Shown piece after piece: positions 20,794 to 45,154 of a stretch of DNA of 64,000 nt. Under the pieces are notes generated by a model. It did no database searches, was not told where the DNA came from, and saw only the letters and a program-made list of their open reading frames with translations. Numbering within the stretch: the first letter of the stretch is position 1; every line of letters begins with the position of its first letter. The stretch is from the NCBI GenBank assembly GCA_025094145.1, contig JALLLS010000001.1:310001-374000 (forward strand). The letters run 5' to 3'. Both the position numbers and the translations under genes were made by a program. This DNA is from Spinellus fusiger. Lineage: Eukaryota > Mucoromycota > Mucoromycetes > Mucorales > Phycomycetaceae.

Positions 20794-21918
20794 AGAATTT
20801 ATCCGATAGTTAGTGTGTTAGTTCAAAGTAGTAGAAACTTTTTTTTAGTGTGAAGAGGGTGTCGTCACAATCCATGAAACCTCAACTAGTTTTGCAGAGA
20901 GAAGGTTTTGCTTGTATAAATTTTTTTTAAATAAACCAATGAATCTTTCTTATGTCTCTGTGGGTGTTCTTTTTCGAAAACTAAAGGGTGGTAAGAGGCT
21001 ATCATAAGAAGAAGTAGAAGAGAGGTTGGAATTGATTTTAGCCATTTTCTATAATATAAAACCTGTTCAATTATAATATAAAAACAGTCCAAGTCTTTGC
21101 AATAAAAATACAATAAAACCTGAACTGTTCTCTCAAATGCAATAAAGAGAGAAAAGAGAGTAATAGAATTTCAGTGGCAATAGAATTGAATAATAAAGTA
21201 ACTCACTAAATTCTTTTATCCTTGGTTCTAAGTAGCCTTTCTCTTTAATCACAATATTACTCTTCATTGTAACTTTATGGACTCTATAGCTATAGACTTC
21301 AATCCTTAAGTTTAAATAAGATACTGCTTCTATTGGTAAATAGGGTTAATTTAAAAGCTCATTATAATCTGCATACTGGTTTTACTCTAAAATTAGACAA
21401 GGATAAAAATGAGCTGCACAGTTTAAAAGTTGAGATTGGATGATTGTGAATATTTTTGCATGATAAAATCCAAACCATACACACTTTGTCGCTCTTTAGA
21501 TGGTTTGCATGTATCATGAGTCTCCGTTAGTCATTCAGTTGAGGCTCCAGCTATAACTGAGGAGAAGGTGGATGAACCAGAAGGCCTGGAGAATGTATAC
21601 GTATAAAAGATTATAGTATTGATGTTATAAACTAGATCTTGCAAAGTATGTGGCTATTCATACTTTAAACTAGTATCACATAAACATATCTTGATTGGCA
21701 ATTTTCTGGTAGGATAAGCACCTGAAGAACTTTCTATAGTTTCCTATAAAAACCAATATATTTATAAGAACTATAGACTACTTCTACAATTATATTGTAT
21801 TCTCTTTATCTACAGTTACACAACATTAGAAAGTATACGACCCCATAATTTATACATTTTTAAACATGATTCTTCTTCTTTTTACCACAGAATCATATTC
21901 CAATAAGCAATCTCAAAT
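20794..21918. other. AT-rich intergenic region
   Basis: The first 150 bp are the probable 3' untranslated region of phospholipase D (poly-T runs and AATAAA-like AAATAAACC near 20925). The rest is AT-rich and should contain the left end of the following mariner, but I could not define its inverted repeat. Confidence 0.45.
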
Positions 21919-23097
21919 GTCAAACGCAGAATCCTCAACTAGAAACTCAAGAGTTTATGCTAGGCTTAAAGAAAGAGAGTAATAGGGTGTTTATTGGCTC
22001 TAAAAAATTACTCCATGAATAGCATTTCAAAAGTCATTGGCATTAGCAAGTCTACTGCCCAGAATATCATTAGTAGAATCAAGACTACTGGTACACCTCT
22101 ACCAGATCCTAGTTCTGGTGCACCAAAAAAATTCAATGAGAGAGACCTCAGACGACTTGAGGCTATTCTAAGAGGCAAACCATTTGCCTCCTATAACTAT
22201 ATAAATTTGGAACTTAAGGCACATGAGATAATCATCTGTAGAGCAATATTCATCAGATATATACATCAGATTGAGCTTGGTTCCTACTTAGTAGCACACA
22301 AGCCAAGGTTATCTGAATAAAACATGAAGAAAAATACTTTGTTGGTCAAAGGAACGGGTCAATTAGACCTCTGAGAGTTGAAAACGTGTCGTATTGTCTG
22401 ATGAGTCACAGTTTGAAGTAGAGGGTTACTAGGGAGGAGCTAGAGTGATTTGAAAAATCGGAGAGAGGTATAAGGCTACTCATAGTGTGCCTACAACCAA
22501 ATGAGGGGAAAAGTAGCATAATGATTTGGAGCTGTTTCTGGGCGGGTGGATTTGGGCCTTTGGTCTTTATTGATAGCACTGTTAATCAGGACATATATGT
22601 CAACATTTTGGCAGGAAAATTTCTGCCATGGTTCATTGAATTGAATGAGATAGAGAACAGGGACTTTATATTCCAAGAAGATGGGGCTAGCTGCCATACA
22701 GGTGGCTATACAACATGGTGGAAAAACACACATGCAATCAGGCGCTTTGATTACTGGCCTGCCCAAAGTCCTGATCTCAACCCCATTGAACATCTCTGGA
22801 GCTGTCTTGATAAGCTTATCAATAACAAGAGAGTCAGTATTAATAATATCAATGAGCCCAAGACAGCTTTAGAAGAAGCTTGGAGAAATATTTACGTCGA
22901 TCTTGCCGAACGTTTAGTTGGCTCAATGAAGGATCGCTGTCAGGCAGTTATTAATGCCAAAGGTGGACCAACAAAATATTAAATAAAAATAAATATACGG
23001 ACAATACAATCACACTATTTCTCTGATTGGCTAATATGTTTAAAAAGGTATTTTCGCTGTCTAAATAAACTATTTGAAACTTTGTGTCATAATACTA
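21919..23097 (+). pseudogene. Broken mariner/Tc1 transposase with right inverted repeat
   Basis: A reading frame starts MSNAESSTRNSR at 21919 and is interrupted by tandem stops near 21980. It resumes in another frame at ALKNYSMNSISKVIGISKST (HTH), running to 22320. After a damaged stretch with VVLSDESQFEV (first Asp), the third part (22485-22981) preserves WSCFWAGGFGPLVF, FQEDGASCHT (second Asp) and WPAQSPDLNPIEHLW (last Glu), and ends normally. The spacing of the last two acids is that of the DD34E group. Bases 23000-23097 contain GATTGGCTAATATG and GCTGTCTAAATAAACTATTTG, the same inverted-repeat motif as the MITE at 38757-39076. Multiple stops show it is inactive. Confidence 0.85.
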
Positions 23098-23383
23098 TTT
23101 CCAAAAATGGATGTTCATCATTTGTGTCGTAGAACAACCAAAAGAGGAAGGTTATTATATGTGTCAGGGACGCACAAGCAATACGACGCATTCTATCATC
23201 GACACTCTTGCATTACACCATCAAACTTATACTTCACACTATAGCTTATAGCTTATAGCAGTAGAAAATAATTATAAAAGAAATTTACAATTGAATGAAT
23301 AAAAAGCAGAGTTTAACCACACGTTGACTGACTGGATTCCTTTGATATTAAAACCAAAGACGGCATTTGTCTACCTATTCTAG

Positions 23384-24616
23384 CAATAACTACACTATTT
23401 TCAAAAAGTATTGACACATTTTTGGGAAATTATAGTATAGAAATGTATTATGGTTCCAAAAAAGACTTACATGTATCTTGGTTTAGTGTAGCGATAACTA
23501 CACCGGATTCTTTTTTGATGTTTTAGTGGATCGACTACTACTAGCTAAAGGTGACTCATTTCTTTTGGTACCAACAGACTGTACTGTCTTGGATCGACAA
23601 AAGCGTTTGGGTTGTTTGCCTTCTTCTCGTAGCTCAAAAGATGAACATGAAGAAAGTTCAATGTTACTGCCATGTCCCGATTCCAAAAGCGTTGAGAAGT
23701 AATCTCATCAGAAACTCCAGCAGTTTTGGTCATGATCTTCAAACATTATTGGTTTTTGCACCTAAATAAAAATAAATAATAAACTTATTAGCCTTTTCTT
23801 TGACTTTTATACATAAAAAAAGAATATTTTTACCTTAAAAGATCATGACATGTCACTGTGGGGTTCTTCTCTCTTCTGAAGGGTCTTGGGTTTTGTACTT
23901 TCTTGGATTTCTCAAGCTTGCCGTTCTCACAGGTAGGACAGAAACTCGATGTTTTGAACTCATCAATAAGAAGCACTTTGAACCCTTCTTTCTTCAACAT
24001 TCTTCTTATTCCAACATCTCTTACAGGTTCATACAACTTGACACTTAATTAATTATCAAGATGAGCATAAATAATTAAGGTAATGTACCATTATTAACAA
24101 AGCGAAACAATATAAAGAATTTGTAGACACCACCAAGGACTATTCTTGAGATAAAAGGGTAAGCAGTGTCTTCATCTCGCCTTGAGCTCATTGTATTCCA
24201 CAAGGCACTCATTGTATTGTTAATAGATAAAGACTCCTTTCAAGTCTGTCTTAGGTGGTCATCTACAAGGTCAATGCTGTCTAAGGTATACTCCTGAGCA
24301 TATTTATCTATCTCTCAAGGATAAATCACAAAGCTTTTAGGGTATAGATTCTATTGCTATGAGAGAATGCACTTGGGCAGTAGCTATAGCTATACTATAG
24401 TATTATCTATACCATTACAATAAACAATTTTATTCATAAACAATATATTTTACTGATAATACAATTTGATATTGAGTATCCACAAAAGGAAACAATAATT
24501 TGAATATCCACAAACCTTTACTTTTAAACACAGTTCCATAGAAGGAGCGTTTTTATTTTACGTAAAAGGAAGGAAATATCACCGCTTAAAGGCCAGAGAA
24601 ATCTTTGGGTGTGTAG
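23384..24616 (-). mobile_element. Fanzor-associated element, copy 1
   Basis: Read on the minus strand, the element starts with CTACACACCCAAAGATTTC at 24616. It runs through about 550 bp of repeat shared with copies at 14.8, 30.4 and 37.3 kb, carries a two-exon Fanzor C-terminal fragment and ends around TAGTTATTGCTAGAATAGG at 23384, a sequence like the tip of the local mariner/MITE inverted repeat. From about 24330 to 23384 it matches the copy at 37.8-38.77 kb with only a single difference noticed (24205 versus 37945). Both boundaries are set by loss of similarity, not by a target-site duplication. Confidence 0.75.
23545..24036 (-). pseudogene. Fanzor (TnpB-like nuclease) C-terminal fragment, copy 1
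   Basis: Exon A (24036-23834) and exon B (23761-23545) are joined by a 72-nt GTAAAA...TTTAG intron. Exon A encodes VRDVGIRRMLKKEGFKVLL then LIDEFKTSSFCPTC, NPRPFRREKNP and HDLLR. Exon B encodes CKNQQC and, after a short insert, RFWNRDMAVTLNF. In the Fanzor/TnpB family the DEF-TS-C-x-x-C and later C-x-x-x-x-C are the zinc ribbon, and W-NRD-x-x-x-x-x-N holds the last RuvC aspartate. The upstream nuclease core with the first two RuvC acids and the nucleic-acid-binding N-terminus are missing, and a stop precedes the fragment. It therefore cannot cut DNA alone. Family assignment is by motif reading and needs no single residue outside the pattern. Confidence 0.75.
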
Positions 24617-24739
24617 AAATGAAACAGAAGAGTCACACGAGCAGTGCACCACTTTCATTATGCAAACAAAGTGTGACGTCGTATACACAAACAACTGGAT
24701 GATCTGTTCACTTCTTTCTCATCTTTGTTTTGTTCTGCA

Positions 24740-27226
24740 ATGACACTCAAAATACCCCATAGCAAGTTGGAACATCATTTGATGGACGCCATGTTTGAAA
24801 AGTCACTCTTCTCAGACTTATCCCTAGAATTCATTCACCCTTTTCTTCCCTTTTCTATGCGTTTTGATGTTCATCGTGCTATTCTCTGCCAGTCTCCCTT
24901 TTTCAATCAACTCATGAAAAGCAAGACGTGCTATGGAAATACAATGTCACACCCAACAACACCTCTTGTCACTCATCTTACTATTGATCTCTTCAACGCC
25001 TTTTCTCAGCGCGGGTTTATCCTCAGTCCTTTCCAGCATATTGTCACTCGCAAGTCGCAAGACCCAACAGATACACATCCTTCCAACAAAACACCCAAAC
25101 TCGGTTCTTCTCCTCTTCTTGCCTCTCACCTCCGTTTTGCTCTTCAGTGGCTCTATGCCTACAACCCAGCCCAACTGCTTGACCACCTTAATGACACAGA
25201 CACCCTTCGTGTCTTGTCCATTGCCATTCTCTTTGACATGACGGACCTGGCCAACAACTGTGTCGATAAGTACTGCACTACCCAACTCAGTCTTGCCAAT
25301 ATCATCAATGACCTCGAGATTATTGGACAACTGCCACGCAACCACGACACTTATTTAAGACTACGTGATGCTGTCTTGCTTCTTCTCTTTCGCCAGGGCC
25401 CCAACCATCCCAGCTACTTGGCTTCTCTTCCTGTAGATTACATGGCAGATGTACTGAGTGCTGATCTACTATTTATTCCTAATGAATTTGCCCGGTACTG
25501 TTTGCTGAAAGAAGTCTTGGTGGCATTTATGCATTCAGTTGGAAAGATCACTTGGACACCGCGTGGGCCTGTAGACCAATATAACAAACGATTGTCTGGA
25601 TTTGTTCAGGTGCCTTTTGGACGGGACAAGAAGCAGGGACAAGGCTCTTTTTCTTCTTCAACAGCGCCTTTCCCAATGGAAAATCCACTGTCAGCTACTG
25701 TGGTACGATCTTTGAAACGTAAACGTATTCCTTCACAAGAACTTGTGGGTGCAGAAACCTTCAAACTGAATCGAGAAGTGAAGAAAGTATCTGAGCGTAT
25801 TAGTTTTTCAGCCTGTGTTCCGTTTGAAAAGCTAAAGGCAGACGCTTCTTCAGGAGGAGTGATTGATAAGGCCACCGTGCTTTCTTATTTGTTAAAAACA
25901 ACGATCAATTACAGCAATATGACATTTGATCAGTTAACAACTGTCCGTCATGATGGAATTGTTGAGGAAGGCGTCGTGTTTCGTGCTCTATGGCAGAGAG
26001 AGGCCTTGGAGCGTATTATATTCCCATTGCATTTCTTGTCTCCTTCAGTAGAAACAGTCGCAGGTCCTTTGGGAGATGAGGACGATCCAAGACACGAAAG
26101 AAGAGAAGCACTGGATGATTATTTTGATGTCGATAATACAGCAGACCAGGAGCATAGACGACGTATTCTGTTGGGTGTGCCTAGATTTAGATTTAGTGCT
26201 TCTGTGATGATTACGCCTGCTTCTACAGAACATGGGTGGGTATGCGTTGAACACAGTACTGAAACAGAGAAGAAAGAAGCATTGGCTGTTAATCGAGAGA
26301 AGGAGGAATTGGAAGAAATGTTGGCTAGTCTTGAAGAAGAGGAAAACGATAAAGAAGCATCTCTATTTGTAGCTGATACCACACACACGAATGAAGAGCA
26401 GGAAGCACTTTATACCACAACAGAGGATCATAGTGTGGGTAGACAGCCATTGTTGCAGCCATTGTCACAGCCATTGCCACAGCCATTGCCACAGCCATTG
26501 TTGCAGAAGGATATGACTTACAAGACCTATGCTTGTACTTTTTACTCACAGCCAGAAAAGGTCCTTGGTATATCTTATCGTATCTCCACCAAAGCACAAG
26601 TTATGCCACGCCATCATTGGCACTCTCTTTCTAACAGAGAAAAGGAGGGTGTAGAAAAAAACGAGGCAACTGACACTATACTTGTATGTCAATTTGAGTT
26701 GCAAAGGAGTGCAGTTTCTACAGAAGAACCCAAAGATGCTCTCTCTCGACGCCCTCACAAGGAAATACGTAGAGAAACCACTCAAGAAGAGGGTGAGGAG
26801 CCCACCGAATCCTTGTTTATACGTCGTAGTCTAGGTACTTCTCGTATTGCCCCCAAGAATGCACTGTTTTCTAGACGAGAGAGTAGCAGTGCTTGTGTAT
26901 TTGATACTGTATTTGCCACCAAGAGTCAACAGGAATTGGCCTCTTCATCACACACTTCAGCCACACCAGCTTCTCAATCTATCAGTTCTACACCCAATGT
27001 ACGCTATTCCATCTACTGTCTTGGTCGACATGCACCTCCTGTGATTAATAATGTAGATAAAGAAGATCGTGTGCTGGTGCCTGTGACAAACTCGGTGGGT
27101 ATGAATGGGGATCAGTCCTCTTCTGGTACTGGCTATGTTGAGCAAGTGGTGGTGGAGACAGATACAGAACAAGGGACCACCATTGATGTGACTGTGGCAT
27201 TGGAGATGTTCGGATTCCCTGTTTGA
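24740..27226 (+). CDS. BTB/POZ-domain protein, germ cell-less-like
   Basis: This intronless frame encodes 828 residues from the ATG at 24740. The N-terminal 50-60 residues (FSDLSLEF, then FDVHRAILCQSPFFNQLM) are a BTB/POZ domain. An insertion follows, then helical BACK-like sequence (LRFALQWLYAY, LSIAILFDMTDLANNCVDKY and LADVLSADLLF-like spacing) to about residue 260. This layout resembles the germ cell-less group of BTB proteins, possible substrate adaptors for Cullin-3 ubiquitin ligases; the link is inference. The C-terminal half has low complexity: a bipartite basic stretch (LKRKRIPSQE), an acidic coiled stretch near residue 530, and a five-fold QPLPQPL-type repeat from tandem CAGCCATTG units at 26455-26505. 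A separate conserved-looking block, YSIYCLGRHAPP, lies near the end. Substrate and location are unknown. Confidence 0.75.
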   Translation: MTLKIPHSKLEHHLMDAMFEKSLFSDLSLEFIHPFLPFSMRFDVHRAILCQSPFFNQLMKSKTCYGNTMSHPTTPLVTHLTIDLFNAFSQRGFILSPFQHIVTRKSQDPTDTHPSNKTPKLGSSPLLASHLRFALQWLYAYNPAQLLDHLNDTDTLRVLSIAILFDMTDLANNCVDKYCTTQLSLANIINDLEIIGQLPRNHDTYLRLRDAVLLLLFRQGPNHPSYLASLPVDYMADVLSADLLFIPNEFARYCLLKEVLVAFMHSVGKITWTPRGPVDQYNKRLSGFVQVPFGRDKKQGQGSFSSSTAPFPMENPLSATVVRSLKRKRIPSQELVGAETFKLNREVKKVSERISFSACVPFEKLKADASSGGVIDKATVLSYLLKTTINYSNMTFDQLTTVRHDGIVEEGVVFRALWQREALERIIFPLHFLSPSVETVAGPLGDEDDPRHERREALDDYFDVDNTADQEHRRRILLGVPRFRFSASVMITPASTEHGWVCVEHSTETEKKEALAVNREKEELEEMLASLEEEENDKEASLFVADTTHTNEEQEALYTTTEDHSVGRQPLLQPLSQPLPQPLPQPLLQKDMTYKTYACTFYSQPEKVLGISYRISTKAQVMPRHHWHSLSNREKEGVEKNEATDTILVCQFELQRSAVSTEEPKDALSRRPHKEIRRETTQEEGEEPTESLFIRRSLGTSRIAPKNALFSRRESSSACVFDTVFATKSQQELASSSHTSATPASQSISSTPNVRYSIYCLGRHAPPVINNVDKEDRVLVPVTNSVGMNGDQSSSGTGYVEQVVVETDTEQGTTIDVTVALEMFGFPV

Positions 27227-27344
27227 AGAATGAACGGTGTATTGTTCTTAATGTAAATAGCATTTTCAAGTGTATTTTTAAGTGTTTAGCCTCTCCTTTC
27301 TTTCTTTTGAATGATAAATTGTATATGACTTCAATGGTGTGTGT

Positions 27345-29225
27345 TTATTCGGTGGAATACTTATTCTTTAAATAATCACCAATTCTCTGATCAATTACTA
27401 GTTTGTTACTAAGGGGATGTAAATAAGGTGGATCTGTTGTGGTGGGGTTGACTAAAGCCTCGAGTTGATCTGTGGCTTTATTCAGTGTATTAGATTTGAC
27501 TGTTTTTGGATTCACAGGGTGCTCTTCTTTCTCTTTTTCTTCTGTTTGTTGTGGTTGTTGTGGTTGCTGAATTTTTATTTTTTCCTCTTGTTCCTCTTGT
27601 TCCTCTTCTTCATCCACCATGTCCATACTAGCACTGCTCTTTCTCCTTTGAGCAACATCAATACCTGATCCACTGCTACTGTAACTGATGGGCACAGAGT
27701 CCCCTGATATGGCTTGAGAATAAGGCCGAGCAGAAGCATGGCAATAACAATACCCTCCTGACATTCTGTTCTCATGGGTACACGCTCTGTGTCTTTCTCC
27801 TGCCCGAAAAGACATATCTGAATGCATCTGCTGGTGGCGATGGAGATCTTCTGAATTAAAAAAAGACGTCCGTGAAGCACGTACAAGATCATTTGTACCA
27901 AGTGCAGTTGGATGTCCGACTTTCAGACTGAGATTCCTCTTCTCGGTTGGAATGAGACCACAGGGAAGTTGTAGAATGGAGCCGAGGGGGGGCAGCCGGA
28001 CGGTCTTGCGGCCCGCGTCTTTCAAAGTCACTGTTGTATCTGGATCTTCGATGGGCAGGAACAGACGATGCTTGCTGTCCAAGCGTACTGTTGGAGATGG
28101 TCTGCATAGGCATCGGAGCTTGGTAGTCAAGAGCAATGCCCAATGGAGTGGCCAAGGTGGCCAAATGAGCAGCATTGGGAGGAGGTCGTAGAGCGGGTCC
28201 TATGGAAGAGTCGTACGAAATGGGTGAGTAATGAGCTCCTGCCGGATGTGGGGTAGTGTAGGACACAGTGTGCTCTCTTTTGTCATGTATTTGATCGATT
28301 CGTACCACTTCCTTCAAGGGAAGAGCGGTGTTTTCGGAAGCAGAAGACGGTAGTTGGACATCCAGCCGACCCAAACAAGGCAGTTTGTATCTCAGCTTAT
28401 AGGACACAGGCGTGGGTTGTGTTAATATCTTATTTGGCGGGTGCATCAATGGAAAGCACACTGTTGCTGCTCCTGCCACGGTCCACAGCAAGGCCCCCAG
28501 CGTACTAGAGACAATAGCAATGGCATAGAGAACAAACTCTCCCCGTGGTGTCGTCTCCGCACACTGTAGTTGAAGATCCGACAAACTGAGAAGAGTACAG
28601 CCCTGAGCCATGGCTTGTGTATAGGACCTGTAGGTGGAGCCGAGAGAAGCAGTCACGAGTGCAACACTCACCATCGTGAGGCCCGCCATAGCAAACGGAA
28701 CAAGGCGATGGAGAAGACGGCCACTCAATAACCCGGCACACCCTACTACCAGGAGAAGAAAGGTACTGGTGAGAAGCATGGCTATCCGTGACACCGAAAC
28801 AGCATCGGAAGAAGAGACGGGTGCTATACTGATAGACTGAGTGTCATTCTGGCTCACTAGAGATATCATATTGAAAGCATCTTTGCTACTCTTAAGCACT
28901 GTATCCTCCTACGTCAACCCCACCTACCAAACGCATAATTGATTCGAGTGGGTGTGCATATGCATTCTTGGGTGAACAGAGCACATACTCTCCATAGACC
29001 CACAGAAATCGTGTCGGGTGTGGGTGAGTGGGTGTCTGTGTGGGTGAATCCTAGCTCAATAAACGACATGTATTTGTGCAGGGAACAATTGTCTGTGGTG
29101 CTGGTTTCTATCCAGCTTCCACACAGCAAGGTGACGATTGACAGTCCTATAAAAAATGATCTTAGCCTTGGAAGTGTACGGTGAAGGGACTTTTTCCGTA
29201 AGCCATTTGAGTGAGCCATGGACAT
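27345..29225 (-). CDS. SUR7/claudin-like four-span membrane protein with long cytoplasmic tail
   Basis: Exon 1 (29225-28928) gives a basic N-terminus, a first membrane span (FFIGLSIVTLLCGSWI) and an outer loop with GLWRVC and further cysteines, the claudin/Sur7-type signature. Exon 2 (28898-27921) gives three more spans (IAMLLTSTFLLLVVGCAGLL, VPFAMAGLTMVSVALVTASL, FVLYAIAIVSSTLGALLWTV) and a serine-rich tail. Exon 3 (27850-27345) adds a low-complexity tail with Glu- and Gln-rich runs and ends YLKNKYSTE. The model is 593 residues. The intron between exons 1 and 2 would be only 29 nt, with good ends and correct phase. The second intron (27920-27851) has a weak GTCGGA donor, so that junction is uncertain, but a frame change in this area is required. 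Sur7-like proteins organise plasma-membrane domains and wall signalling in fungi; the exact role here is inferred. Confidence 0.65.
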
Positions 29226-29449
29226 GGAAGAACAAAAGGGAAAAATAATAATAAAAGTCAGTGTATCGATGAAAATAAAATAAAATAAAAAGGTGAATAT
29301 TTATTATTTACAAGTTCATCAAGTAGGGATTTGTTTCTCCATTTAAAAAAGAATAAATACGCTTTCAGGTACACAAGAAACTGTCTCTATTCTAGGCAGT
29401 TCTTTCTTTCTTCTTCTTCCAATGGCATTGTTTGTTGTTGATTTGCACT

Positions 29450-30068
29450 CTAGAAGTTTTCATGAGGCATCAGCTTTTTGAATTCATCAAAGTCAATGTA
29501 GCCGTCCTTGTTCAGATCAGCCTCATCCATCATGCTTCTTATATCACATGTGCGTGCATTCTCCCCGAGTTGGATCATCACCTGTGTTAATTCGTTCTCA
29601 CTAATGCGTCCATCTTGGTTCTTATCAAAGGCCTTGAAGACTTGTAAAAGTTCTTCTTCATCATGGAAACTGGTGCTTCTACTCTTGTTACTACTGTCTG
29701 TATTGGATGTGGTGCTATTCTGACGCTGGCTAGTGTTGGTCTTTGGAATATAACGTGTCATAGCCTCCACAAACTCATTAAAGTCAATCTTATCATCCTT
29801 GTTCTTATCCACAGAATGGACAATGGACTGGATTTGTTCGGGTTGAGTGGCAATACCAAGGCTCTTAAGAATGCTTGCAAATCCATCGATACTAATAGCA
29901 CCTGCATTACTGCTATCATAGAGTTGGAAGGCTGTTCATAGGTGTAAATAGAAGTATACAACACAACACAACACAACACACACACACACACACACAACAC
30001 TTCTTTATTCTCTCACCTTGCTTTAATTCCTCCAATTCTTCCTTTGAAATGTCTGCTGAGGAGGCCAT
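29450..30068 (-). CDS. Calmodulin-like EF-hand protein
   Basis: Two exons (30068-30017 and 29931-29450) encode 177 residues. The protein starts [19 protein letters not shown], as calmodulins do after the initiator region. Four EF-hand loops are visible. Loop 1 (YDSSNAGAISIDGF) lacks several acidic ligands and is probably silent; loops 2-4 (DKNKDDKIDFNEF, DKNQDGRISENEL and DLNKDGYIDFDEF) look able to bind calcium. The linker between lobes has about 30 extra residues rich in Ser, Thr, Asn and Gln, making the protein longer than calmodulin (about 148). This suggests a calmodulin-like regulator with its own targets, or a regulated flexible linker; it is not the canonical calmodulin. The intron contains an AACAC/CA repeat. 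Confidence 0.88.
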
Positions 30069-30419
30069 AGATGAATCTATACTTATACAAAAGAGGGAAA
30101 GAAAGAAAGAGGAGAGTTGATAGTTCTTTTTATATTGGCAAAGGCAAATAGAAATAATTTAATCTCCGTAAATCCATCAAGAAGAGATCGACTCAAGTCT
30201 TACGTCAACCTAGAAATGGAAAATACCTTTTATTTGCTTATAAAATAGGACAGTGGATTCGCAGTTTCTTTTGATTCTTTCTTTTGATTCTTTCTATTCT
30301 CTAGCCTTTTATGAATATAACTCAGTAGATTCCATACAAGAATAAAATTGCCTACTAAAAACATAGACACACGCACACATATTCCATTATTTCTCATAGC
30401 AACAGACTGGAATGATATC
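30069..30419. other. Intergenic, promoter side of the calmodulin-like gene
   Basis: 350 bp upstream of the calmodulin-like start. A TATATT motif lies near 30131 on the plus strand. No further gene is seen before the repeat element starting at 30420. Confidence 0.4.
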
Positions 30420-31130
30420 CTACACACCAGGAGATTTTTTTGGCCTTTAAGCGCTGATATCCCCTTCCTTTTACGTCTAAAAATTTCTTGCCGTTTTATG
30501 GAACTGTATTTAAAATCAAAGGTTTGTGGATATCCAAATAATTGTTTCTTTTTGTAGTATACCTCAATATCAAATTGTATTATCAATGGAATATATTGTT
30601 TATGAATAAAATTGTTTATTGTAATAGTATAGCTAATACTATAGTATGACTGTAGCTACTGCCCAAGTGCATTCCCTCATAGCAATAGAATCTATACCCT
30701 AAAAGCTTTGTACTTTATTTTCAGGAGATAGATAACTATGCTCAGGAGTATACTTTAGATACCCTAGACAGTATAGAAGACCACTTGGGACTGACTTGGG
30801 AAAGAGTCTTATCTAATAACAGAAGAGTGTATTAGTAATAATTCAATCAAGAGACATAGTATGCTTACCTTGTACTTAATACTTGTCTTGCTATTAATAA
30901 GCCATATATCATCTATTAGAAGAAGAGTCAGTACTATGTCTTGTGGATTACATTGAACTCAAGCCCAGATGAAAAGCTCTTCTAACAGTTACTCTTATTT
31001 TTGTTCTCAAGATCTGCCATACTTGCAACACAAATATCCTCACTGAGGTATTAGTGAATTTCAACACTATCCGCGCTTGCCAAAGTTGCGGAATTGTTTA
31101 GAACAGAGATGTGAATACATCAAAGGGTAT
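30420..31130 (+). mobile_element. Fanzor-associated element, copy 3 (diverged)
   Basis: It begins CTACACACCAGGAGATTTTT and follows the other copies through TTTAAAATCAAAGGTTTG, TATTGTTTATGAATA, GCTACTGCCCAAGTGCATT and ATGCTCAGGAGTATAC, then more loosely through CAGATGAA and TTCTCAAG near 31010. Where copies 1 and 2 continue with a non-coding spacer, this copy goes straight into a zinc-ribbon-like frame (separate entry). The 3' end could not be defined. Confidence 0.65.
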
Positions 31131-31380
31131 CTATACAGTCACATAAGAATAGATATTTGTATTCATATTATATTATATATCGCCACCGAAAGTGGTTTCC
31201 TTCGGGATTTAGATATTTACAGGTAAATTTACATAATAATCTTTATTTTAAAACTAACATGAATACATTTCACTTTTTTTGCTCCTTTTCAAATCTATGT
31301 CATTTTTTAAACAATTGTATTTCGACTATTTCTTTTTATATCCTAAAGACCTCTTGGTGTGTAAGGAGAGTCATAACAAC
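31010..31380 (+). pseudogene. Second, diverged Fanzor/TnpB-type C-terminal relic
   Basis: From 31010 the plus strand reads KICHTCNTNILTE, then NTIRACQSCGIV, an amber codon, and NRDVN. This is the pattern C-x-x-C ... R-x-C-x-x-C-G ... W-NRD-x-N of the TnpB/Fanzor zinc ribbon and final RuvC motif, with TGG (Trp) changed to TAG. After about 150 bp that may be a remnant intron, 31260-31350 reads NMNTFHF then CHFLNNCISTISF, resembling the helix and R-P-x-F tail that follow the NRD motif in fungal Fanzors. The cysteine spacing and insert are shorter than in copies 1 and 2, so it is a different subfamily. It is plainly inactive. Confidence 0.6.
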
Positions 31381-31604
31381 AGTGCCAAGTCTATGGATCC
31401 ACCCACAGGTGAAAGAGAGGTGGTGTAGCCACAGGTAGTACAGAGTCAATAGCAACCACCAACCTATACTGTAAGAGACCAGCAAGAAGACAACTAGCAC
31501 CAGGTAGACACACTAATAAAGCAAAGAAGAGTTCTGTCAATAACAGTGACCTTTTATATAAATATCTGTGGTGTTGTAGTGATCAATAGAATTTACTATA
31601 GTAA

Positions 31605-31699
31605 TAAAATGTATTAACAATAAAGTGTATTAACAGCAAAGTGTATTAACAGCAAAGTGTATTAACAGCAAAGTGTATTAACAACAAAGTGTATTAACA
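31605..31699. repeat. 16-bp minisatellite
   Basis: Six tandem copies of a unit close to AAAGTGTATTAACAGC, with AACAAT and AACAAC variants, are read directly. It lies downstream of the diverged Fanzor relic. Confidence 0.9.
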
Positions 31700-32025
31700 T
31701 AGACATCATTTCAATGACTTCACTCTAATGAAAACCAAGTTTCAAGTCAACAGGTACTCCTTGAGAAGGAACAAAGACTCATTTCTACTATGGTATATCT
31801 GTCTATTCCTGACAAAATAACTCATTCTGATACTGTACAATTTGCAATTTAATATATAATACAGTAAGAATACAATCTTGCATTAGTAGGCCCCACCTCT
31901 AATCTATAGAACAAGGGTAAAGAAGAGATCTTTCTTTGATCTTTCTTTGATCTTTTTTATTATTAGTATTAGTATTAAATTCATTTACATGGTGAATAGA
32001 TGTATCAACTCCATTGTGTATACTT

Positions 32026-33539
32026 CTAAGAGTCATCCTCTTCATAAAAGAAAGGATGTTTTACAGCCTATAGATGAGTAAAAATAACACACCCAACAGG
32101 ACTTACTCGTAGTGCTGAGATACGCAGAGAAGGATCGTAGTCTAAGAGAGACTGTAGGAAACAACTTAGTAACATCTCTCTCCTACAAATTCTACCTTTA
32201 ACAAGTCATGAGCTGCATCTGATGCGTAAACAGCACCTTTGATATCATTGATGGCTTTCTTGATATCGACTGTCTTCCATACTAGTTTCTTATTAGCAAT
32301 GTCTTTTAGCGTGTCCTTATCCTACCTGGAAAGGCATGTTTGAATGTCTTGAGTGAGGTCACTCCATTCCATAGCTCTTCATTGGGAGTGCCTAATACTC
32401 TGTTCTCATATCAGTATCCACCTTGCTATTCATATAAAAGGGAGATGAACTTACTGGAAGATACGAAAGAGTTGGTCGATTTGTGAATCACCTTAATCAC
32501 TGTGTCAGTTTCTTTTATTTTTGTTTGTTTGTTTGTGTAGACACATATAGAATCATTCGTATGATCCTCATCTTATAGTTTACCAGTAAAGAGAGGTGCC
32601 ATAATGAACATCTCTATCATAATACAACCAACACTCCACATATCCACAGCTGTTGAGTAGTGCTGGCACTCCATCAATATCTCTGGGGCTCTGTACCATA
32701 GAGTAATCACCTTGCCACAAGTAAGAAAGAGGTGTATCCTCTAAACCACTTACTTGCTGTGTATAGGATCTCATAGGAATACCAAAGGGACGGGAGAGTC
32801 CAAAGTCTGCAATAGTAAGTTTGCCTGTTCGATCAATGAGGATGTTTTGTGGTTTGAGATCTCTATGCAGTATTCGATGACTGTGGCAGTAGCAAAGTCC
32901 ACTGAGCAATTGATGAGAGAAGGATTTTATATGAGCAAGGGAGAGACCTGCTCTCCCTACTTCAAGCATATACTTTCTTAAATCCTGTACTATTAGTACA
33001 TACATGGGATAGATGGAGACTTACAATATCAAAGTACTCAAAGACAAGGTAGATGGTGGTGTCTTTTTGTATTAAATCCAATAGCCTATCCACAAGCATT
33101 GGTGTCCTGCTGCTGTCAACAACACTTACTTTATCACATTAGGATGTTTGAGTTCTTTGAGAATGGCAATCTCTCGGAGAGTGGTGGTAGATACACCCTG
33201 ACGAATGCTAAGGCGTATTCTTTTGATAGCAACAAGAGATCCACTGGTTGTAGCCTTTGCTTTGAATACAACGCCATAGACACCTTCCCCTATTTTGCAT
33301 ATCTTTTGATAGCCGTTGAGTTTATGGTCGTCTTCATGATCATCCTCTTCATTCTGGATGAGAGTGCCTCTTTGTTGCTGATCTCGTGCATCCTGTCTAT
33401 GAACAGCAGGTGCATGTTCTACTGGGACAGTTTCCGTGGGTCTATCTGTATGAGCATGCATTGCCATTCCATCTATAACGTCCAGCTTGTCAAATGAACG
33501 ACACAGACGAGAGCAGTCCAGTGGAGAAAAATCTGTCAT
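32026..33539 (-). CDS. Cyclin-dependent kinase-like protein kinase (variant PSTAIRE and Thr14)
   Basis: Nine minus-strand exons (33539-33130, 33085-33025, 32984-32754, 32710-32584, 32491-32455, 32399-32326, 32302-32196, 32151-32107, 32067-32026) give 377 residues. The kinase domain starts near residue 77 after an acidic N-terminal extension. It shows [49 protein letters not shown] and the T-loop continuation [12 protein letters not shown], all close to CDK1/CDK2. Two key positions differ: the glycine loop has GEGVYG instead of GEGTYG, removing the Thr14 inhibitory site but keeping Tyr, and the PSTAIRE helix reads STTTLRE. It also has about 30 extra residues after [15 protein letters not shown]. 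It is probably a divergent cyclin-dependent kinase, with an unknown cyclin partner. The sixth intron (32325-32303) would be 23 nt, so a frameshift there is an alternative. Confidence 0.82.
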
Positions 33540-35166
33540 TACGTAAAAAAAAAAAAAAAGTGCGCCTCTATTGGGATTTCTACTTGAAATTTTAAGTTGT
33601 AGACTAGTTTTTTTTTTCTTTCTTGGTGTGGATCTACTTTTCTCTTTTGGACTTTATTGAGTGTAAAAATAGGTTAAGTTGTTTTGATATAGAGTGCGAT
33701 TCTATTGACAATGGGTTTGTAGATTGGCCTATTTATGAGCAGACTCCTAGAATAAAGTGCATTAACAGACAGACACGTACTTTCTTTGTGTGTGGGTAAG
33801 AACACAGAAGCACAAGAATAAAACAGCATAGAACAATAGAAGCACTGAGGCATAGAAACATAAAAATACATTCAAGAATTGAGAAATTATAAAAATACAG
33901 GATTCTTCAACAAGAGAATAACAAGCGACACACAAAGAAGACGAGAAAGGAAACGAGAAAGGAAACGAGAAAGTGACTGTGACTATTATTATTGTTGGAA
34001 AACCCAGAAAACAAGAGGTGTTAAGTAGGTAAAAGTTATATTTCTCAAAGTTAAATAGTATGAATTTTAGTCTACTTGTATACATATTTTGGTCTATGCT
34101 ACAAAAATCCAAGTTATACACTAATAGCTTCTCAGTAAATTCAGGGATGTGTTTCCTTCTCTTGTCCTATGTGTGTTTCAAGGGGGAACCTTCAGATTTA
34201 CAACATTATTATTATTATAGAGAGAAATGAAAACATTACACAGGGAAGGAAAGAATCAACAGAGTATTTTACTATAAAAAGAGACAATTGTAAGTTGAAT
34301 TTATGACACTAGAGTATTCTGTAGATAAGTGTTAATATTATATACGAAATAAAGAGAGTATTTAGACAGTTTACCAGTATAAATCAACAAGAGCATGAGT
34401 GACATTGGTGTTATTCAGTTTACAAGTTCAAAATACATGCACATCCACTCGTAATAGCTCTCTATTCCTATGGTCATTTATTAAGAAACAGTATACTACA
34501 ATGGACAATCCAAAACGCACTCTCATATGTTTACAGTATTTTTTTCATCTCCTTCCTGTACCAATAGCCACCACAGGTAGATGGGGTGAGCTGGACTCGA
34601 ACCTTCTTTTTCTTTCAATACCAATGTTCTTTTATAGACTTATGATGGTGAGGATGAGGATGATGAGGACATACATGGGATTTGTGTGTCTTATGATTCA
34701 ATTTTCTATAGCTACTACATTGGACAGAGTCATTTTTCCTATTGTTCTATAACTGTCCTTTGTGCCAACCAAAATATAAATAATAGTACTACTCATTTAG
34801 AGCGACTACTACACTCCTCCAGAAATACCAATACAAGTCTTTGAACAATCGTATATTTTTGTCCATCGCCTTTATAAAGGTGTCTTATTCATTTACTGAA
34901 ATGTCTCATTTATTTATATTTAAAAACATTTTATTTTAGGTTAAAACGGTATATCTACAGTGTCACAGAACAGTAAAAGGTAATTATAGTAAAGATGATA
35001 TAGATGATATAAATGATAGAAACAAAAACAGAAACAGAAACAGAAATATATAAATAGGAATAGAAATAGGAATAGAAATATAGATAACAGACACAAGAAT
35101 AGAAATAACAGGCACAAGATTCATAATAACATGAATATTATCTATAGATATATACAAAGAAAATAT
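33540..35166. other. Intergenic region
   Basis: 1.6 kb upstream of the kinase gene. It contains T-runs, small tandem repeats (ACGAGAAAGGAA near 33940-33970 and AGAAACA near 35025-35045) and short open frames without domains. A tRNA-like T-arm motif near 34590 does not extend to a full tRNA. The part next to 33540 should be the kinase promoter. Confidence 0.45.
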
Positions 35167-35502
35167 TTAACAGGGGCAGAACTCAGTAGAGTGGGGGCCA
35201 GCACAATTGGTACACTTCTTTGCATAGAATGTGGCTTGAGGAGGTGAATTCTGTAGTCCAAACAGAGAAAAGTGCAAGGTGGGCATAAGGTTGGGACGAG
35301 GAAAATCGTTGAGAACCGAAATCTCTGTAACTACTTCTTGCGGTGAGTCGTGGGCAGACTTTTGAGTGAGAGGTCGAGAAGAGGGACTGAAAGGACTTTG
35401 ACGCTTAAGTACTGTCGATATTGGGACTATGCTCTTTCGAATGTGGTCGGTTTTAGAGGCGAGCATGGAGCCAATAAAAGGGATAGAAGTAAGAAAAGCC
35501 AT
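35167..35502 (-). CDS. Small hypothetical protein with a Cys/His C-terminus
   Basis: The frame from the ATG at 35502 encodes 111 residues. It starts MAFLTSIPFIGSM, has a Ser/Pro-rich basic middle (KRQSPFSPSSRPL) and ends KKCTNCAGPHSTEFCPC. The terminal C-x2-C-x4-H-x4-C-x-C pattern resembles a zinc knuckle, but I do not recognise a family. A TATA-like motif lies about 70-80 bp upstream at 35572-35583, which supports a real gene. It stands alone in a repeat-rich region. It could also be the last exon of a larger gene whose upstream part I cannot see. Confidence 0.45.
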   Translation of the reverse strand: MAFLTSIPFIGSMLASKTDHIRKSIVPISTVLKRQSPFSPSSRPLTQKSAHDSPQEVVTEISVLNDFPRPNLMPTLHFSLFGLQNSPPQATFYAKKCTNCAGPHSTEFCPC

Positions 35503-37279
35503 TGGTAAATAATAAGGCTGTGAATAGCAGTGAAAAAGAAACAATAACAAAATACTTCAGTAATATTTCCCCTTTTTATAAGGGCTCCGAAATCATCCGA
35601 ATGAACCAACAAATCACAACTAGCTTACTTAGTCCATGTTGGCGCAGTAGTAGATTACTGTAAAAGTCAATAAACCCTTGGGCTTATTGAATCTCCGGCA
35701 GGATAAAGAAGAAACGGCTCCTTAGATCCGTACAAATGACAAGTCTGCAAGAATTAAGCAATATGTACCACTATTATATTATAGATGGAGAACAATATCT
35801 CTAAAATAGAAGCATTGACACGTTATTCTTTAGAGATTCATCCATGTTATTAGATAAATCTGTGAAGATATGGGATATATATAATAATAATAAAAAGAGT
35901 ATTAGAATAGAATATGCTTTTTATTTATCAAGGTATTCTTTTCTTCTTTTCTTTTGTATAGCCTTCTATTTAAACATAAAGTTGATCTATCACGAACACT
36001 ACTGTATTCACATCGTGTTGATACTGCCATGGTTATAAATAGGCTTGGCATCTTTCTATGGTTGTTAGGGGTTAGTATAGTCTATACACACTGCAATAAC
36101 ACCTCATAGGATAAAACTGTATTTTCTTTTTTAATGAAGAGACAAAGCATTATTTCTCTTTAAAAGAAATGTCATTGGTTGTGCATGGATCAGAACACAC
36201 GTTTTACAATAATTTTAATACTATTTAATTATATTAATATTATCTCAGATAAATAAACAATAAATGGGGAAAAATTACTTCCATTCAACTAAAAGAGAAT
36301 GCGTTAAGTATTAATGATTTGGATGCCTCAAAACAGTGTTAGTAGAAAAGTGCATCATGGGAATATAAAGATACAGCTTAACAAATAAAGAGATCTGAGG
36401 CCTGTCAATACCAAGGAAATATAGCCAGACTTATTGTTTTCTTTCTTTCTTGGCAATCTATTGTTAGAAGAACAGCTAATAACATTAGAATAGTATACAT
36501 TCTAGTTTATTGAATTGAAGTATGGTTTAAACAAATAGTATTCCAACTCTGTTGAATGTAGTGAGCTATTTATGTAAAGAATTAGATGCTTAAAAGAATT
36601 GTATAGTTGTATCGAGTATTGCACCACCTGCATAATTGATCTATCCTCCGCATCTCATTTACAAGATTCTATCCGAGTGTTCCCATTGAACTCATGAGTC
36701 GACTGTTTTCTATTAGCCGACTGCTCGAGATTCATCTCACTAGAAGTTCCTTTATCAATCTTAATGCCCGACATTACACCACATTATCAGTAAGAGGGTG
36801 ATTTATGTTACATTGAATGGCTATTAATATTAAAAATAAGTCACTATCTGCTATTTCTGACCCCAATGAGATGAGAGACATTCTATTAAACGGTATAGAT
36901 TAATCTGGTTCTATAAAATTAAAAAAAAAAAAGATAGACGCATTATAAACAAGGTGATATTTCTATGTCTGTGAGTTTATTCTATCTATTCTTTATGAGA
37001 CTAAAATTCTATTGATCTATACAGAATATCATCTAAATAATTGTTTTATTCTTCAATATTAAGTACATTGAATTATCTTGAATAAAATTGGGAAATTATT
37101 AGACTAGACTATTCAACTTGAAAATCCTTCACAAGTGACCCAATGATTAGATCAATATCAAAAGGAGAAAGTCTAATTATTCTTAGTAGACCCTTAGCCA
37201 ACTTCTCTTTTTTTTCTTTTTTTTTTTAAAAAAAAAAGGCTGATATTTACTTATTTCTATTTCAGAGTTCATTCTATTA
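35503..37279. other. AT-rich gene desert
   Basis: I see no gene with support. There is a moderately GC-richer patch at 36620-36800 (TCCTCCGCATCTC..., GTCGACTG...) that may be eroded coding debris, and A- and T-runs near 36920 and 37210-37240. Confidence 0.45.
35572..35583 (-). promoter_or_regulatory. Possible TATA box of the small gene
   Basis: The minus strand reads CTTATAAAAAGG about 70-80 bp before the ATG at 35502. It is the clearest TATA-like element in this area; function is inferred. Confidence 0.35.
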
Positions 37280-38772
37280 CTACACACCAGGAGATTTTTC
37301 TGGCTTTCAAGAGATAACATACATTCCATTTAAAGAATATGAATATTTCCTTTTTATGAATTTGTGTTTAAAATCAAGGGTTTGCAAGTATCTAAATGAT
37401 TATTTCCTTTTGTAGTATACCTCAATATCAAATTGTATTATCAGTAAAATAGTGTTTATGAATAGCATTGTTAATATCATCTTTGGGTTTTTAGTCCAAA
37501 GGTATACGGAATAGTAGAACTTTTATTTATACTCTGATGTTTATTAAATAGAATTTTTATGTCTTTTATACTTTTATAATGATATAGATTCAGGGGTATT
37601 CTATCAAACTACTATGAACTATCGACATCCCTTGATATTCGATAGAGTTCTCTTCTTAGTTTGGTAATAAACGAGTTCCAATTCTTAAGAGAGTGATCCT
37701 TCCAAATATGGCGAAAAGTCTTCACGACAAATGGATAAAATTGTTTATTATAATAATATAGCTACTACTGTTCTGAGTGTATTCCCTCATGGCAATAGAA
37801 TCCACAACCTAAAAGCCTTGTGATTTATCCTTGAGAGATAGATAAATATGCTCAGGAGTATACCTTAGACAGCATTGACCTTGTAGATGACCACCTAAGA
37901 CAGACTTGAAAGGAGTCTTTATCTATTAACAATACAATGAGTGCTTTGTGGAATACAATGAGCTCAAGGCGAGATGAAGACACTGCTTACCCTTTTATCT
38001 CAAGAATAGTCCTTGGTGGTGTCTACAAATTCTTTATATTGTTTCGCTTTGTTAATAATGGTACATTACCTTAATTATTTATGCTCATCTTGATAATTAA
38101 TTAAGTGTCAAGTTGTATGAACCTGTAAGAGATGTTGGAATAAGAAGAATGTTGAAGAAAGAAGGGTTCAAAGTGCTTCTTATTGATGAGTTCAAAACAT
38201 CGAGTTTCTGTCCTACCTGTGAGAACGGCAAGCTTGAGAAATCCAAGAAAGTACAAAACCCAAGACCCTTCAGAAGAGAGAAGAACCCCACAGTGACATG
38301 TCATGATCTTTTAAGGTAAAAATATTCTTTTTTTATGTATAAAAGTCAAAGAAAAGGCTAATAAGTTTATTATTTATTTTTATTTAGGTGCAAAAACCAA
38401 CAATGTTTGAAGATCATGACCAAAACTGCTGGAGTTTCTGATGAGATTACTTCTCAACGCTTTTGGAATCGGGACATGGCAGTAACATTGAACTTTCTTC
38501 ATGTTCATCTTTTGAGCTACGAGAAGAAGGCAAACAACCCAAACGCTTTTGTCGATCCAAGACAGTACAGTCTGTTGGTACCAAAAGAAATGAGTCACCT
38601 TTAGCTAGTAGTAGTCGATCCACTAAAACATCAAAAAAGAATCCGGTGTAGTTATCGCTACACTAAACCAAGATACATGTAAGTCTTTTTTGGAACCATA
38701 ATACATTTCTATACTATAATTTCCCAAAAATGTGTCAATACTTTTTGAAAATAGTGTAGTTATTGCTAGGAT
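37280..38772 (+). mobile_element. Fanzor-associated element, copy 2
   Basis: It begins CTACACACCAGGAGATTTTT and has the same order as copy 1 but on the plus strand, so the two form an inverted pair about 14 kb apart. It ends at AGTGTAGTTATTGCTAGGAT, where the MITE at 38757 begins. About 270 bp at 37466-37735 are absent from the other copies and are flanked by ATTGTT on both sides, suggesting a later insertion. Downstream of about 37830 it matches copy 1 almost perfectly. Confidence 0.75.
38113..38604 (+). pseudogene. Fanzor (TnpB-like nuclease) C-terminal fragment, copy 2
   Basis: Exon A (38113-38315, open from about 38102) and exon B (38388-38604) are separated by a 72-nt intron 38316-38387. 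The encoded residues appear identical to copy 1 throughout: DEFKTSSFCPTC, NPRPFRREKNP, HDLLRCKNQQC and RFWNRDMAVTLNF, ending KEMSHL. The frame upstream is closed by a TAA, and no RuvC-I or RuvC-II sequence is present within the element. About 165 bp after the stop lead to the mariner-like terminus and contain a small hairpin, GTGTAGTTATCGCTACAC at 38647-38664. In characterised Fanzor loci the guide RNA overlaps this 3' region; whether any RNA is made here is unknown. Confidence 0.75.
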
Positions 38773-39076
38773 AGGCAGACAGAGTTTGAAATAGTTCATT
38801 TAGACAGCGAAAATACCCTTTTTTAAACACATTAGCCAATTATAGAAATTATGTTATTTTATTGTCCGTGTATTTACTTTTATATCCCAAAAATCTTTAG
38901 GTATATAGAAAGTTATGACCGTCAACCTACACCCCAGAAGATATTTGTGATATAGAAAGAAATATCCTGAGAATAAAATTGTATTACTCTTATGATTGGC
39001 TAATATGTTTGAAAATGACTATTTGCTGTCTAAATACACAATTTCAAACTCTACTTGCCTATCTTAGCAATGACTA
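38757..39076. mobile_element. Mariner-type MITE, almost fully palindromic
   Basis: The left arm starts TAGTTATTGCTAGGATAGGC and the right arm, read on the minus strand, starts TAGTCATTGCTAAGATAGGC. Similarity continues for about 150 bp through AGTTTGAAATAGT, TTTAGACAGC and ATTAGCCAAT, leaving only about 25 bp in the centre. TA lies at both tips, as expected for Tc1/mariner target sites. There is no coding sequence. The arms match the right end of the broken mariner at 23000-23097 and the solo arm at 15584-15745, so that family is the likely source of transposase. Confidence 0.8.
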
Positions 39077-44286: not shown

Positions 44287-44850
44287 TTTTTTTCTACTAG
44301 TAGCAAAGTGGTTATTCTATCGAGCAACCCATACAAAGCAAGGATTTATTCTCCTTCTGTTACGCTATCATTCAGAGTGGATCCAAATAAGGAAGGATTC
44401 ATTTCCCTACGCCTAGCTCTCTTTAAAACGCAGTCCACCCTTTATGGCCTCAACCTGAAAGTGTGCCTTTTCATATCTTCATACAATATAATAGTAACTG
44501 TCTTGTCCTAATATGAAATAAATTGTTTTTTATTTCCTATTAAAAAGATATAAATTTAATCTATCAACTAAAAATAACTGAATCAGCTACAAAAAAATGT
44601 ATCCGTTACAAACAAATATATCTATTACAAACAAATGTATCTATTACAAACAAATGTATCTATTACAAACAACTGTAAGCTGAGACCATAAAGGGTGGAC
44701 TGCGTTTTAAAGAGAGCTAGGCGTAGGGAAATGAATCCTTCCTTATTTGGATCCACTCTGAATGATAGCGTAACAGAAGGAGAATAAATCCTTGCTTTGT
44801 ATGGGTTGCTCGATAGAATAACCACTTTGCTACTAGTAGAAAAAAAGAAA
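44287..44850. repeat. Foldback element with about 170-bp inverted arms
   Basis: The left arm (44287-44453) and right arm (44681-44850) are near-perfect reverse complements, from CTACTAGTAGCAAAGTGG at the outer ends to CCTTTATGG at the inner ends. The outer tip itself holds the palindrome CTACTAGTAG. The 227-bp centre contains four tandem copies of about 19 bp (CTATTACAAACAAATGTAT) at 44590-44672. The arms do not resemble the mariner/MITE family. Open frames in both arms are mirror images and not genes. Confidence 0.85.
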
Positions 44851-45154
44851 AAGAAATAGAGAAACTAAAATTAAATCTATAAAAGAGAGTGTGAAGTGTT
44901 TTTCTCTCTTTTTTTTTTTCTTTTTTTTTTTCTGATTCTCTTCATAGATAAAGCTAGTAGTTCATTCTCCAATTAGAATAGACTCTGCTGAATCCCCGAT
45001 GCTATTTCTAATCGTTATCATCATAAGCAAGTTTTAGCTGATAACTTATTTCCCATCAATTACCTAATTTAGTAAAATTTATATGTTCTGTGTTACAAAT
45101 ATAAATCAGACATAGAGTCACGCTTTTTACAGAATATCTCACAGAGGAGTTCAT
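44851..45154. other. Intergenic, low complexity
   Basis: Pyrimidine tract at 44903-44935 and otherwise featureless AT-rich sequence. No gene is seen. Confidence 0.4.

Follow-up and report, generated by a model that had tools for sequence, protein, structure and literature searches.

The window considered in this study, a stretch of 64,000 nucleotides from the Mucorales fungus Spinellus fusiger (assembly GCA_025094145.1, contig JALLLS010000001.1, positions 310,001 to 374,000 of the forward strand), carries two nearly identical C-terminal fragments of Fanzor, the eukaryotic relative of the TnpB nucleases, in inverted orientation. As read from the sequence, each fragment is part of a larger, internally deleted element with terminal inverted repeats (TIRs), resembling a miniature inverted-repeat transposable element. 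We consider it probable that the fragments are Fanzor1 remnants in two separate, old, internally deleted copies of one TIR family, and that the middles of these copies have been homogenized. The main features of the pair are as follows.

37818-38769, plus strand: near-identical tract of the plus copy (2 differences in 952 bp), a candidate gene-conversion tract
23380-24331, minus strand: near-identical tract of the minus copy, the counterpart of 37818-38769
38110-38315, plus strand: Fanzor C-terminal piece 5' of the intron, first half of the TNB zinc ribbon (translation, phmmer)
38316-38387, plus strand: intron of the plus copy, 72 nt, GT-AG
38388-38604, plus strand: Fanzor C-terminal piece 3' of the intron, ending at the stop, with the remaining half of the zinc ribbon and RuvC-III WNRD (translation, phmmer)
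23834-24039, minus strand: Fanzor piece 5' of the intron, minus copy (translation, genome search)
23762-23833, minus strand: intron of the minus copy, 72 nt, equal to 38316-38387 on the plus strand
23545-23761, minus strand: Fanzor piece 3' of the intron, minus copy (translation, genome search)

A repeat search of the window delimits the arms of the pair at 23368-24373 (minus) and 37776-38781 (plus); they are 1006 nt long, 99% complementary and separated by 13,402 nt. Base by base, the arms differ at 11 of 1006 positions, seven of them in the first 42 nt, two in the last 12 nt and two between, the central 952 bp (37818-38769) containing just the differences at 37945 and 38401. The inverted pair of near-identical fragments (23545-24036, minus, and 38113-38604, plus) announced by the original prediction is thus real, and the shared intron and residues that it described are seen as well: both copies read identical open reading frame (ORF) pieces around the 72-nt GT-AG intron. 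Both contain the motif string DEF-K-TS-SF-CPTC ... NPRPFRR ... CHDLLRCKNQQC ... FWNRD.

The proposed relation to Fanzor is supported. The spliced fragment of 140 residues matches Fanzor 1 of Parasitella parasitica (PpFz1, PDB 9cf0) with E=5.3e-30 and the Fanzor of Spizellomyces (8gkh) with E=5.2e-12; the sole Pfam match is Cas12f1-like_TNB (E=7.8e-4, under its cut-off). The Fanzor1 motif, a C4 zinc ribbon followed by RD, was defined by Bao and Jurka as [TS][TS]xxC..C..C..C-X(5,50)-RD (PMC3627910). The window fragment contains it as TSSFCPTC..CKNQQC, 21 residues and RD. In a 3.9-kb relative (locus L051) the first RuvC aspartate precedes the TS motif by 178 residues, where 125-275 are expected, and the corresponding region is absent from the window fragments, both of which are truncated. 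These matches support the assignment of the window fragment to the C-terminus of Fanzor1. No functional Fanzor nuclease gene was found in the window, which holds C-terminal pieces and no further listed Fanzor match. A protein search for relatives of the fragment gave four proteins of 90-200 aa, which were used no further. As Fanzor remnants, the fragments are ordinary.

The elements that contain the fragments, and the sequences adjoining them, are the following.

37281-38907, plus strand: non-autonomous Fanzor-derived element, TIR to TIR, 1627 bp (TIR matches, locus comparison)
37281-37299, plus strand: left TIR TACACACCAGGAGATTTTT, with TTAC just before it at 37277-37280
38889-38907, plus strand: right TIR AAAAATCTTTAGGTATATA (TIR matches)
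37476-37730, plus strand: 255-bp insertion of the plus copy, lacking in the minus copy as well as in short relatives such as L024, L025, L028 and L029
23368-24615, minus strand: Fanzor-derived element, from the left TIR (24615) to the end of continuous homology (locus comparison)
23086-23367, no strand: 282-bp sequence between the minus copy and a right-end remnant (sequence comparison)
22983-23085, minus strand: right-end remnant of a Fanzor-family element, 87% identical to 38779-38883
21811-22989, plus strand: Tc1/mariner-like element, cut short on its right side, abutting the remnant (DDE_3 ORF 22485-22982, Pfam E=9.6e-09)

A right TIR of the minus element was searched for and not found. 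Outside the near-identical tract, the two elements are clearly diverged. Their left 200 bp are 75% identical, the segment 38779-38883 is 87% identical to its counterpart, the flanks differ, and each copy has a private insertion, of 255 bp in the plus copy and 282 bp in the minus copy; in the four short relatives named above position 37475 joins 37731 directly. At its left end, for instance, the minus copy agrees with another locus, L030, at 94% over 64 aligned bases, and with the plus copy at only 45 of 65. The description of the fragments as recent copies therefore does not stand, since the elements are 75-87% alike outside the tract, with different insertions and flanks, and their ends are old and divergent.

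Recent transposition, by which one fragment would have arisen from the other through local hopping, accounts for the near-identity over about 1 kb and has a possible parallel in a Tc1-like family used below as a control, where a pair on one contig (C110) is about 98% alike along its whole length. A hop, however, copies the ends too, and the left 200 bp at 75%, the right part at 87% and the private 255- and 282-bp insertions do not agree with it; nor can mutation give 25% divergence at the ends alongside two differences in the middle. We regard this explanation as very unlikely. Because transposition copies the ends and mutation cannot diverge the ends alone, the combination of divergent ends with an identical middle points to gene conversion, and the best explanation of the sequence pattern is that the middle of the window pair was homogenized by local interlocus gene conversion. 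The middle of one window copy would have been written onto the other by homology-directed repair. Of the papers listed on Fanzor together with gene conversion, none seems, judging by the listing, to concern exchange between Fanzor elements.

The whole genome (38,076,753 bases in 197 contigs; C numbers denote contigs and L numbers compared loci) contains many relatives of the pair. The fragment protein has at least 182 matches at E 0.001, counted per exon, with 150 of 331 candidates scored, and the fragment DNA has at least 92, with 40 of 1635 candidates scored. Over 33 loci, the elements have in common a left end ACACACC...AGATTTTT and a right end AAAAATCTTTAGGTGTGTA, and the right end includes GGTGTGTA. 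The left TIR pattern with up to three mismatches occurs at 909 places and its reversed control at none; the 909 places are not an element count, as some elements bear the left pattern at both ends.

The search for full-length copies that had been proposed with the original prediction recovered L051, an element in C110:203800-209500 that measures 3.9 kb from end to end and retains the greater part of a Fanzor1 gene, with a single in-frame stop. Its 479-aa piece matches PpFz1 with E=6.4e-128 and its N-terminal piece with E=3.9e-12. Another ORF of L051 has sub-threshold helix-turn-helix matches (HTH_23, E=0.0064; HTH_SB, E=0.061) and no match in PDB, and inspection by eye of the ORFs of at least 60 aa, which apart from this one had no profile search, revealed no DDE-like ORF. 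Two copies on C79, each 2.7 kb long, are deleted to an intermediate extent. In the short form the greater part of the gene is gone, and what remains is the 5' end, the zinc-ribbon and RuvC-III exons and the 3' end. A pattern scan of 41 loci found the same deletion junction, with the microhomology AAGTT on both sides, in nine of them (L021, L022, L024, L025, L026, L028, L030, L031 and L037), including both window copies; the upstream coding sequence runs uninterrupted through this site in 14 other loci, plus L042 and L051 (one site), and the remaining 16 loci were not matched by the pattern. Since the short copies share one junction, they are best explained by one deletion at AAGTT in the TIR family, which would then have been followed by multiplication.

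The ends of these elements bear TA: the right T and A are conserved at 95% each, and on the left the T adjoining the pattern's A is conserved at 99%. A perfect target-site duplication (TSD) of 4, 5, 6, 8 or 9 bp was found in none of 22 elements with three placements of the left end. A TSD longer than TA was thus rejected; when mispaired flanks served as the comparison, a single test out of 18 (6 bp, one placement) gave p~0.03, with no perfect copy.

Across six neighbouring pairs, interiors with an identity of 93-100%, in most cases 100%, adjoin stretches of 57-88%. Both ends are divergent in the 14.7-kb pair on C1 and in the inverted 21-kb pair on C2. In an inverted pair at 857 and 984 kb of C1, 127 kb apart, about 470 bp at 73-88% are followed by complete identity to the right end. 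One divergent end is seen in the direct 58-kb pair of C141 (about 120 bp at 68-70%) and in the inverted 34-kb pair of C79 (about 120 bp at 83-88%), and the direct pair L066/L068 of a related family on C118 has about 120 bp at 80-88% at the one end compared.

In order to relate identity to distance, we compared a 651-bp block in 42 copies (the 40 scored DNA places and the C2 pair), that is, 861 pairs, with a median identity of 90.0%. Pairs on the same contig at 4.7-127 kb are 100, 100, 100, 100, 99.8, 97.1, 95.1 and 95.1% identical, and nine same-contig pairs more than 180 kb apart are at the genome median, 87.6-91.4%. Identity of at least 97% is reached by five of seven pairs at up to 100 kb versus six of 854 others (Fisher p=2.5e-9, which is a guide only, as pairs share members); one further pair, 127 kb apart, is 100% identical. 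Conversion in this genome would thus mostly join copies less than about 130 kb apart, in either orientation.

The control consisted of 21 copies of a Tc1-like family without Fanzor (the window's copy and 20 of 40 places, 18 of the 20 picked for sharing a contig), giving 210 pairs. Two of its seven pairs at up to 100 kb reach 97% (99.1% at 27 kb and 97.8% at 62 kb), and these are the highest of all 210; one of them, on C110, stays at about 98% along the full element and resembles a local hop. Fanzor itself could drive the homogenization by cutting inside or beside the elements, as five of seven near pairs reach 97% in the Fanzor family versus two of seven in the control. Seven pairs per family are, however, too few to separate these proportions, no guide matching the interiors of elements was seen, although no search aimed at one was made, and an empty site would have no element sequence in common with an ectopic copy; we hold such a role of Fanzor to be highly improbable.

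Several observations weigh against homogenization of the middles as the general explanation. In four of the six pairs described above the divergence is confined to one end, and a C176 pair matches at 703 of 703 bp as far as the right TIR, its other side breaking at an interruption. Two C176 pairs at 69-74 kb are just 95.1% identical, and identities of 100% and 99.8% also occur between copies on separate contigs (C22/C47 and C110/C142). Local homogenization is not specific to Fanzor, the control family showing a weaker version of it. Finally, reads anchored in the flanks combined with a wrongly filled repeat would also yield true ends and copied middles. Such an assembly artefact, in which sequence from a neighbouring element was placed in the middle of another, is favored by the division of the genome into 197 contigs. 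On the other hand, residual differences remain, two in 952 bp here and several in the C79, C2 and C141 pairs (though none in the 703 bp of C176), the copies are about 10% apart, a distance that assemblers normally separate, and there is no N in the window or in the compared loci. We consider the artefact unlikely, and conversion between neighbouring old copies remains the reading that we regard as probable.

The second feature of the family is the sequence just outside the left end. In the whole genome, TTAC stands before 28 of 440 exact left ends, where base composition predicts 2.4, and the mirror sequence GTAA follows one of 91 exact right ends. A Fanzor C-terminal match follows on the same strand, at most 4.5 kb downstream, at 13 of the 28 TTAC ends versus two of 97 non-TTAC ends (Fisher p=2e-8). 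The Fanzor places in this comparison are a lower bound, being the listed protein matches, with second-exon matches omitted, plus two DNA matches, and the 97 ends come from the first 100 of the 440 and hence only from the lowest-numbered contigs. Among 22 copies with a Fanzor C-terminus, 11 have TTAC, three ATAC and eight neither, three of these eight ending in AC. In 47 left flanks of the L051 type, C is found at position -1 in 81%, A at -2 in 68%, T at -3 in 68% and T at -4 in 72%. These flanks comprise 17 from known copies and 30 of the 37 new ones obtained from the 40 scored matches to the first 605 bp of L051, the other three belonging to loci already compared; seven were dropped with the TIR out of register, at least two of them having TAC just outside (L108, L125). 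The background of one WTAC in 91 was counted by eye, and the comparison that we rely on is 13 of 28 versus two of 97.

An initial sample comprised 98 left and 96 right flanks, all distinct and drawn from the first 100 places of each end. In it TA adjoins both ends and 65% of the left flanks have C at -1, whereas the right flanks show no signal of this kind, their strongest base being A four bases past TA in 60%. The motif TCTA, suggested by the logo of this sample, was replaced by the split analysis, as the sample mixed Fanzor copies with ghosts, that is, elements with the ends and without the ORF.

Reading of individual elements agrees with the split. Three elements flanked by TTAC or ATAC (on C154, C140 and C170) are Fanzor deletion derivatives, and those on C154 and C140 belong to the 15 TTAC ends without a listed Fanzor match. 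Three elements without such a flank are ghosts, sharing only a left end of about 600-680 bp and a right end of 140-150 bp; the first 600 bp or so are shared at 84-87% and the right ends are similar, yet TTAC is missing.

The TTAC flank may, tentatively, be a footprint of Fanzor activity, that is, a retention signal resembling a target-adjacent motif (TAM) and favoring Fanzor-bearing copies. Full-length members of the family would supply, or would have supplied, a Fanzor nuclease with a TAM near TTAC. Copies located 3' of TTAC could then be restored after excision by an RNA-guided cut of the empty site and its repair, and Fanzor-bearing copies beside TTAC would accumulate. By analogy with other systems, the right flank would be the source of the guide and TTAC would mark the TAM side. 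The bacterial element IS608 likewise targets TTAC.

It is quite possible, though, that TTAC has nothing to do with Fanzor and is either the left terminus of the Fanzor-bearing lineage or a transposase target: the four bases touch the TIR directly, and no empty site was found. The conservation of these bases is, however, uneven and lower than that of the TIR, unlike a fixed terminus, and the similar ends of the ghosts imply similar transposase binding sites, yet the ghosts have no TTAC. The contrast between Fanzor-bearing copies and ghosts despite similar ends argues against a pure transposase preference.

The idea of a retention signal meets several objections. Eight of the 22 Fanzor copies have no WTAC, TTAC could be the element's own left end, and the association is with a lineage. 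A search with 12 joined flanks for empty sites gave no match, among 40 scored candidates, crossing the junction beyond a few bases; the left flank of L053 used there is itself a repeat. No sign of an omega-RNA was obtained by folding five right-end sequences (z -1.07 to +1.0), and the consensus fold of 21 right-end sequences has -1.45 kcal/mol, with a pair-preserving change on both sides in one of 18 pairs. A longer 3' alignment (32 of 35 sequences, three partial matches being dropped) gave z +1.1 for the last 117 columns and about -2.1 in the two furthest-upstream windows, which we do not accept as omega-RNA evidence. In the window, Rfam had no match at the gathering threshold and the tRNA search returned none. 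In Spizellomyces, moreover, ghosts keep the left motif (PMC10432273), and the three ghosts read here do not have TTAC.

The relation to known Fanzor systems is mixed. PpFz1 (PDB 9cf0-9cf3) ranks first for the fragment (5e-30) as well as for the 479-aa L051 piece (6e-128), although the latter has no counterpart of about 100 residues between PpFz1 residues 989 and 1089, where, judging from the position, the FRI insertion of PpFz1 is expected. The screened TAM of PpFz1 is ATN (PMC11423790), different from the TTAC observed here. The SpuFz1 elements of Spizellomyces punctatus have a conserved CA just outside the left repeat, and the Spu-1 ghosts keep both this CA and the omega-RNA of the right end (PMC10432273). 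They resemble the S. fusiger family in having a Fanzor gene within TIR elements, ORF-less ghosts with retained ends and extra conserved bases outside the left repeat; they differ in the bases themselves (CA versus TTAC), in the deletion copies, which here retain the zinc-ribbon exons, and in number, with 134 ghosts there (PMC10432273) versus 909 left-pattern places here. Fanzor1 elements of Rhizopus, Phycomyces and Mucor were described as MuDr-like with 9-bp TSDs (PMC3627910). The present family is similar to them as TIR elements of Mucorales without a transposase gene and different in that a 9-bp TSD is found in none of 22 elements, a TA duplication being possible at most. Fanzor1 also occurs in Tc/mariner elements with TA as TSD (PMC3627910), to which TA at both ends and the weak helix-turn-helix match of the 3.9-kb copy would correspond, whereas no DDE domain was seen in L051 and the TA may be either duplicated or terminal.

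Additional members and relatives of the family are found in the window and elsewhere in the genome.

14796-15734, plus strand: third TIR-family element, 939 bp (TIR matches; no Fanzor ORF seen)
30421-31363, plus strand: fourth element bounded by TIRs, 943 bp long, in which a decayed zinc ribbon is left from another Fanzor-like type
38927-39071, minus strand: right end belonging to another element, lying tail to tail with the plus copy (matches 38757-38902 in inverted orientation; 74% over the longer match)

In the interior of the fourth element, at about 31010-31110, the string CHTC..CQSCG..NRD with a stop is, by eye, the trace of a second Fanzor-like gene type. The tail-to-tail end begins 20 bp past the end of the plus copy and is followed, by eye, by Tc1-like remnants. 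The Tc1 family that abuts the minus copy also occurs at L092 (C110:448300-451500), nested in a member of the Fanzor TIR family with matches to the L051 ends on both sides. Four copies of another Fanzor subfamily, L066-L069 (C118:140500-194300), lie within about 54 kb, and one inverted pair of them, 4 kb apart, is 99.95% identical over at least 1816 bp. The loci L057 (C47) and L058 (C22) agree at 99.3% over 2.08 kb, as far as the compared stretch reaches, and may represent a duplicated segment or redundant contigs. Right ends at C94:5011, C94:10033, C189:16786 and C189:21763 have the outside sequence GGCTTCTGTGTAA in common and form inverted pairs about 5 kb apart, which suggests duplicated palindromic segments. 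Two further repeats of the window are inverted arms of 171 nt at 44282-44452 and 44681-44851, 99% complementary and 228 nt apart, and a 13-bp tandem repeat of the AGTGTAGGTAGAG type at 54050-54234.

The fragments bracket a block that had been described as four genes, BTB, SUR7-like, calmodulin-like and a cyclin-dependent kinase. Three of them were recovered by Pfam.

24677-27223: BTB protein (Pfam, exactly at the cut-off)
29453-29935, minus strand: EF-hand protein (Pfam)
32583-33653, minus strand: protein kinase, in pieces (Pfam)

The SUR7-like gene found no such backing, as the ORFs at its expected position (27348-29300) had no Pfam match at E 0.01, Pfam being the sole test for SUR7. Inversion of the block by recombination between the fragments is possible in principle and is not seen here; the window pair itself suggests a past exchange of information rather than an inversion.

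Two features deserve attention, the probable local copying among neighbours and the TTAC flank linked to Fanzor. Homogenized neighbours caution against taking near-identity of Fanzor copies for recent transposition, and they suggest that dispersed elements swap sequence locally, which bears on the risk of rearrangement around the bracketed gene block. A genome with 909 left-pattern places permits a direct comparison on the role of Fanzor in its eukaryotic transposon: Fanzor-bearing copies are enriched for a left-only TTAC and their sister ghosts are not, which makes one clear TAM prediction. If copies with a present or recent Fanzor gene indeed persist best beside its TAM, this would be a natural-population test of Fanzor restoring its transposon after excision in a TIR element, and such retention would be seen outside elements of the IS200/605 or IS607 type.

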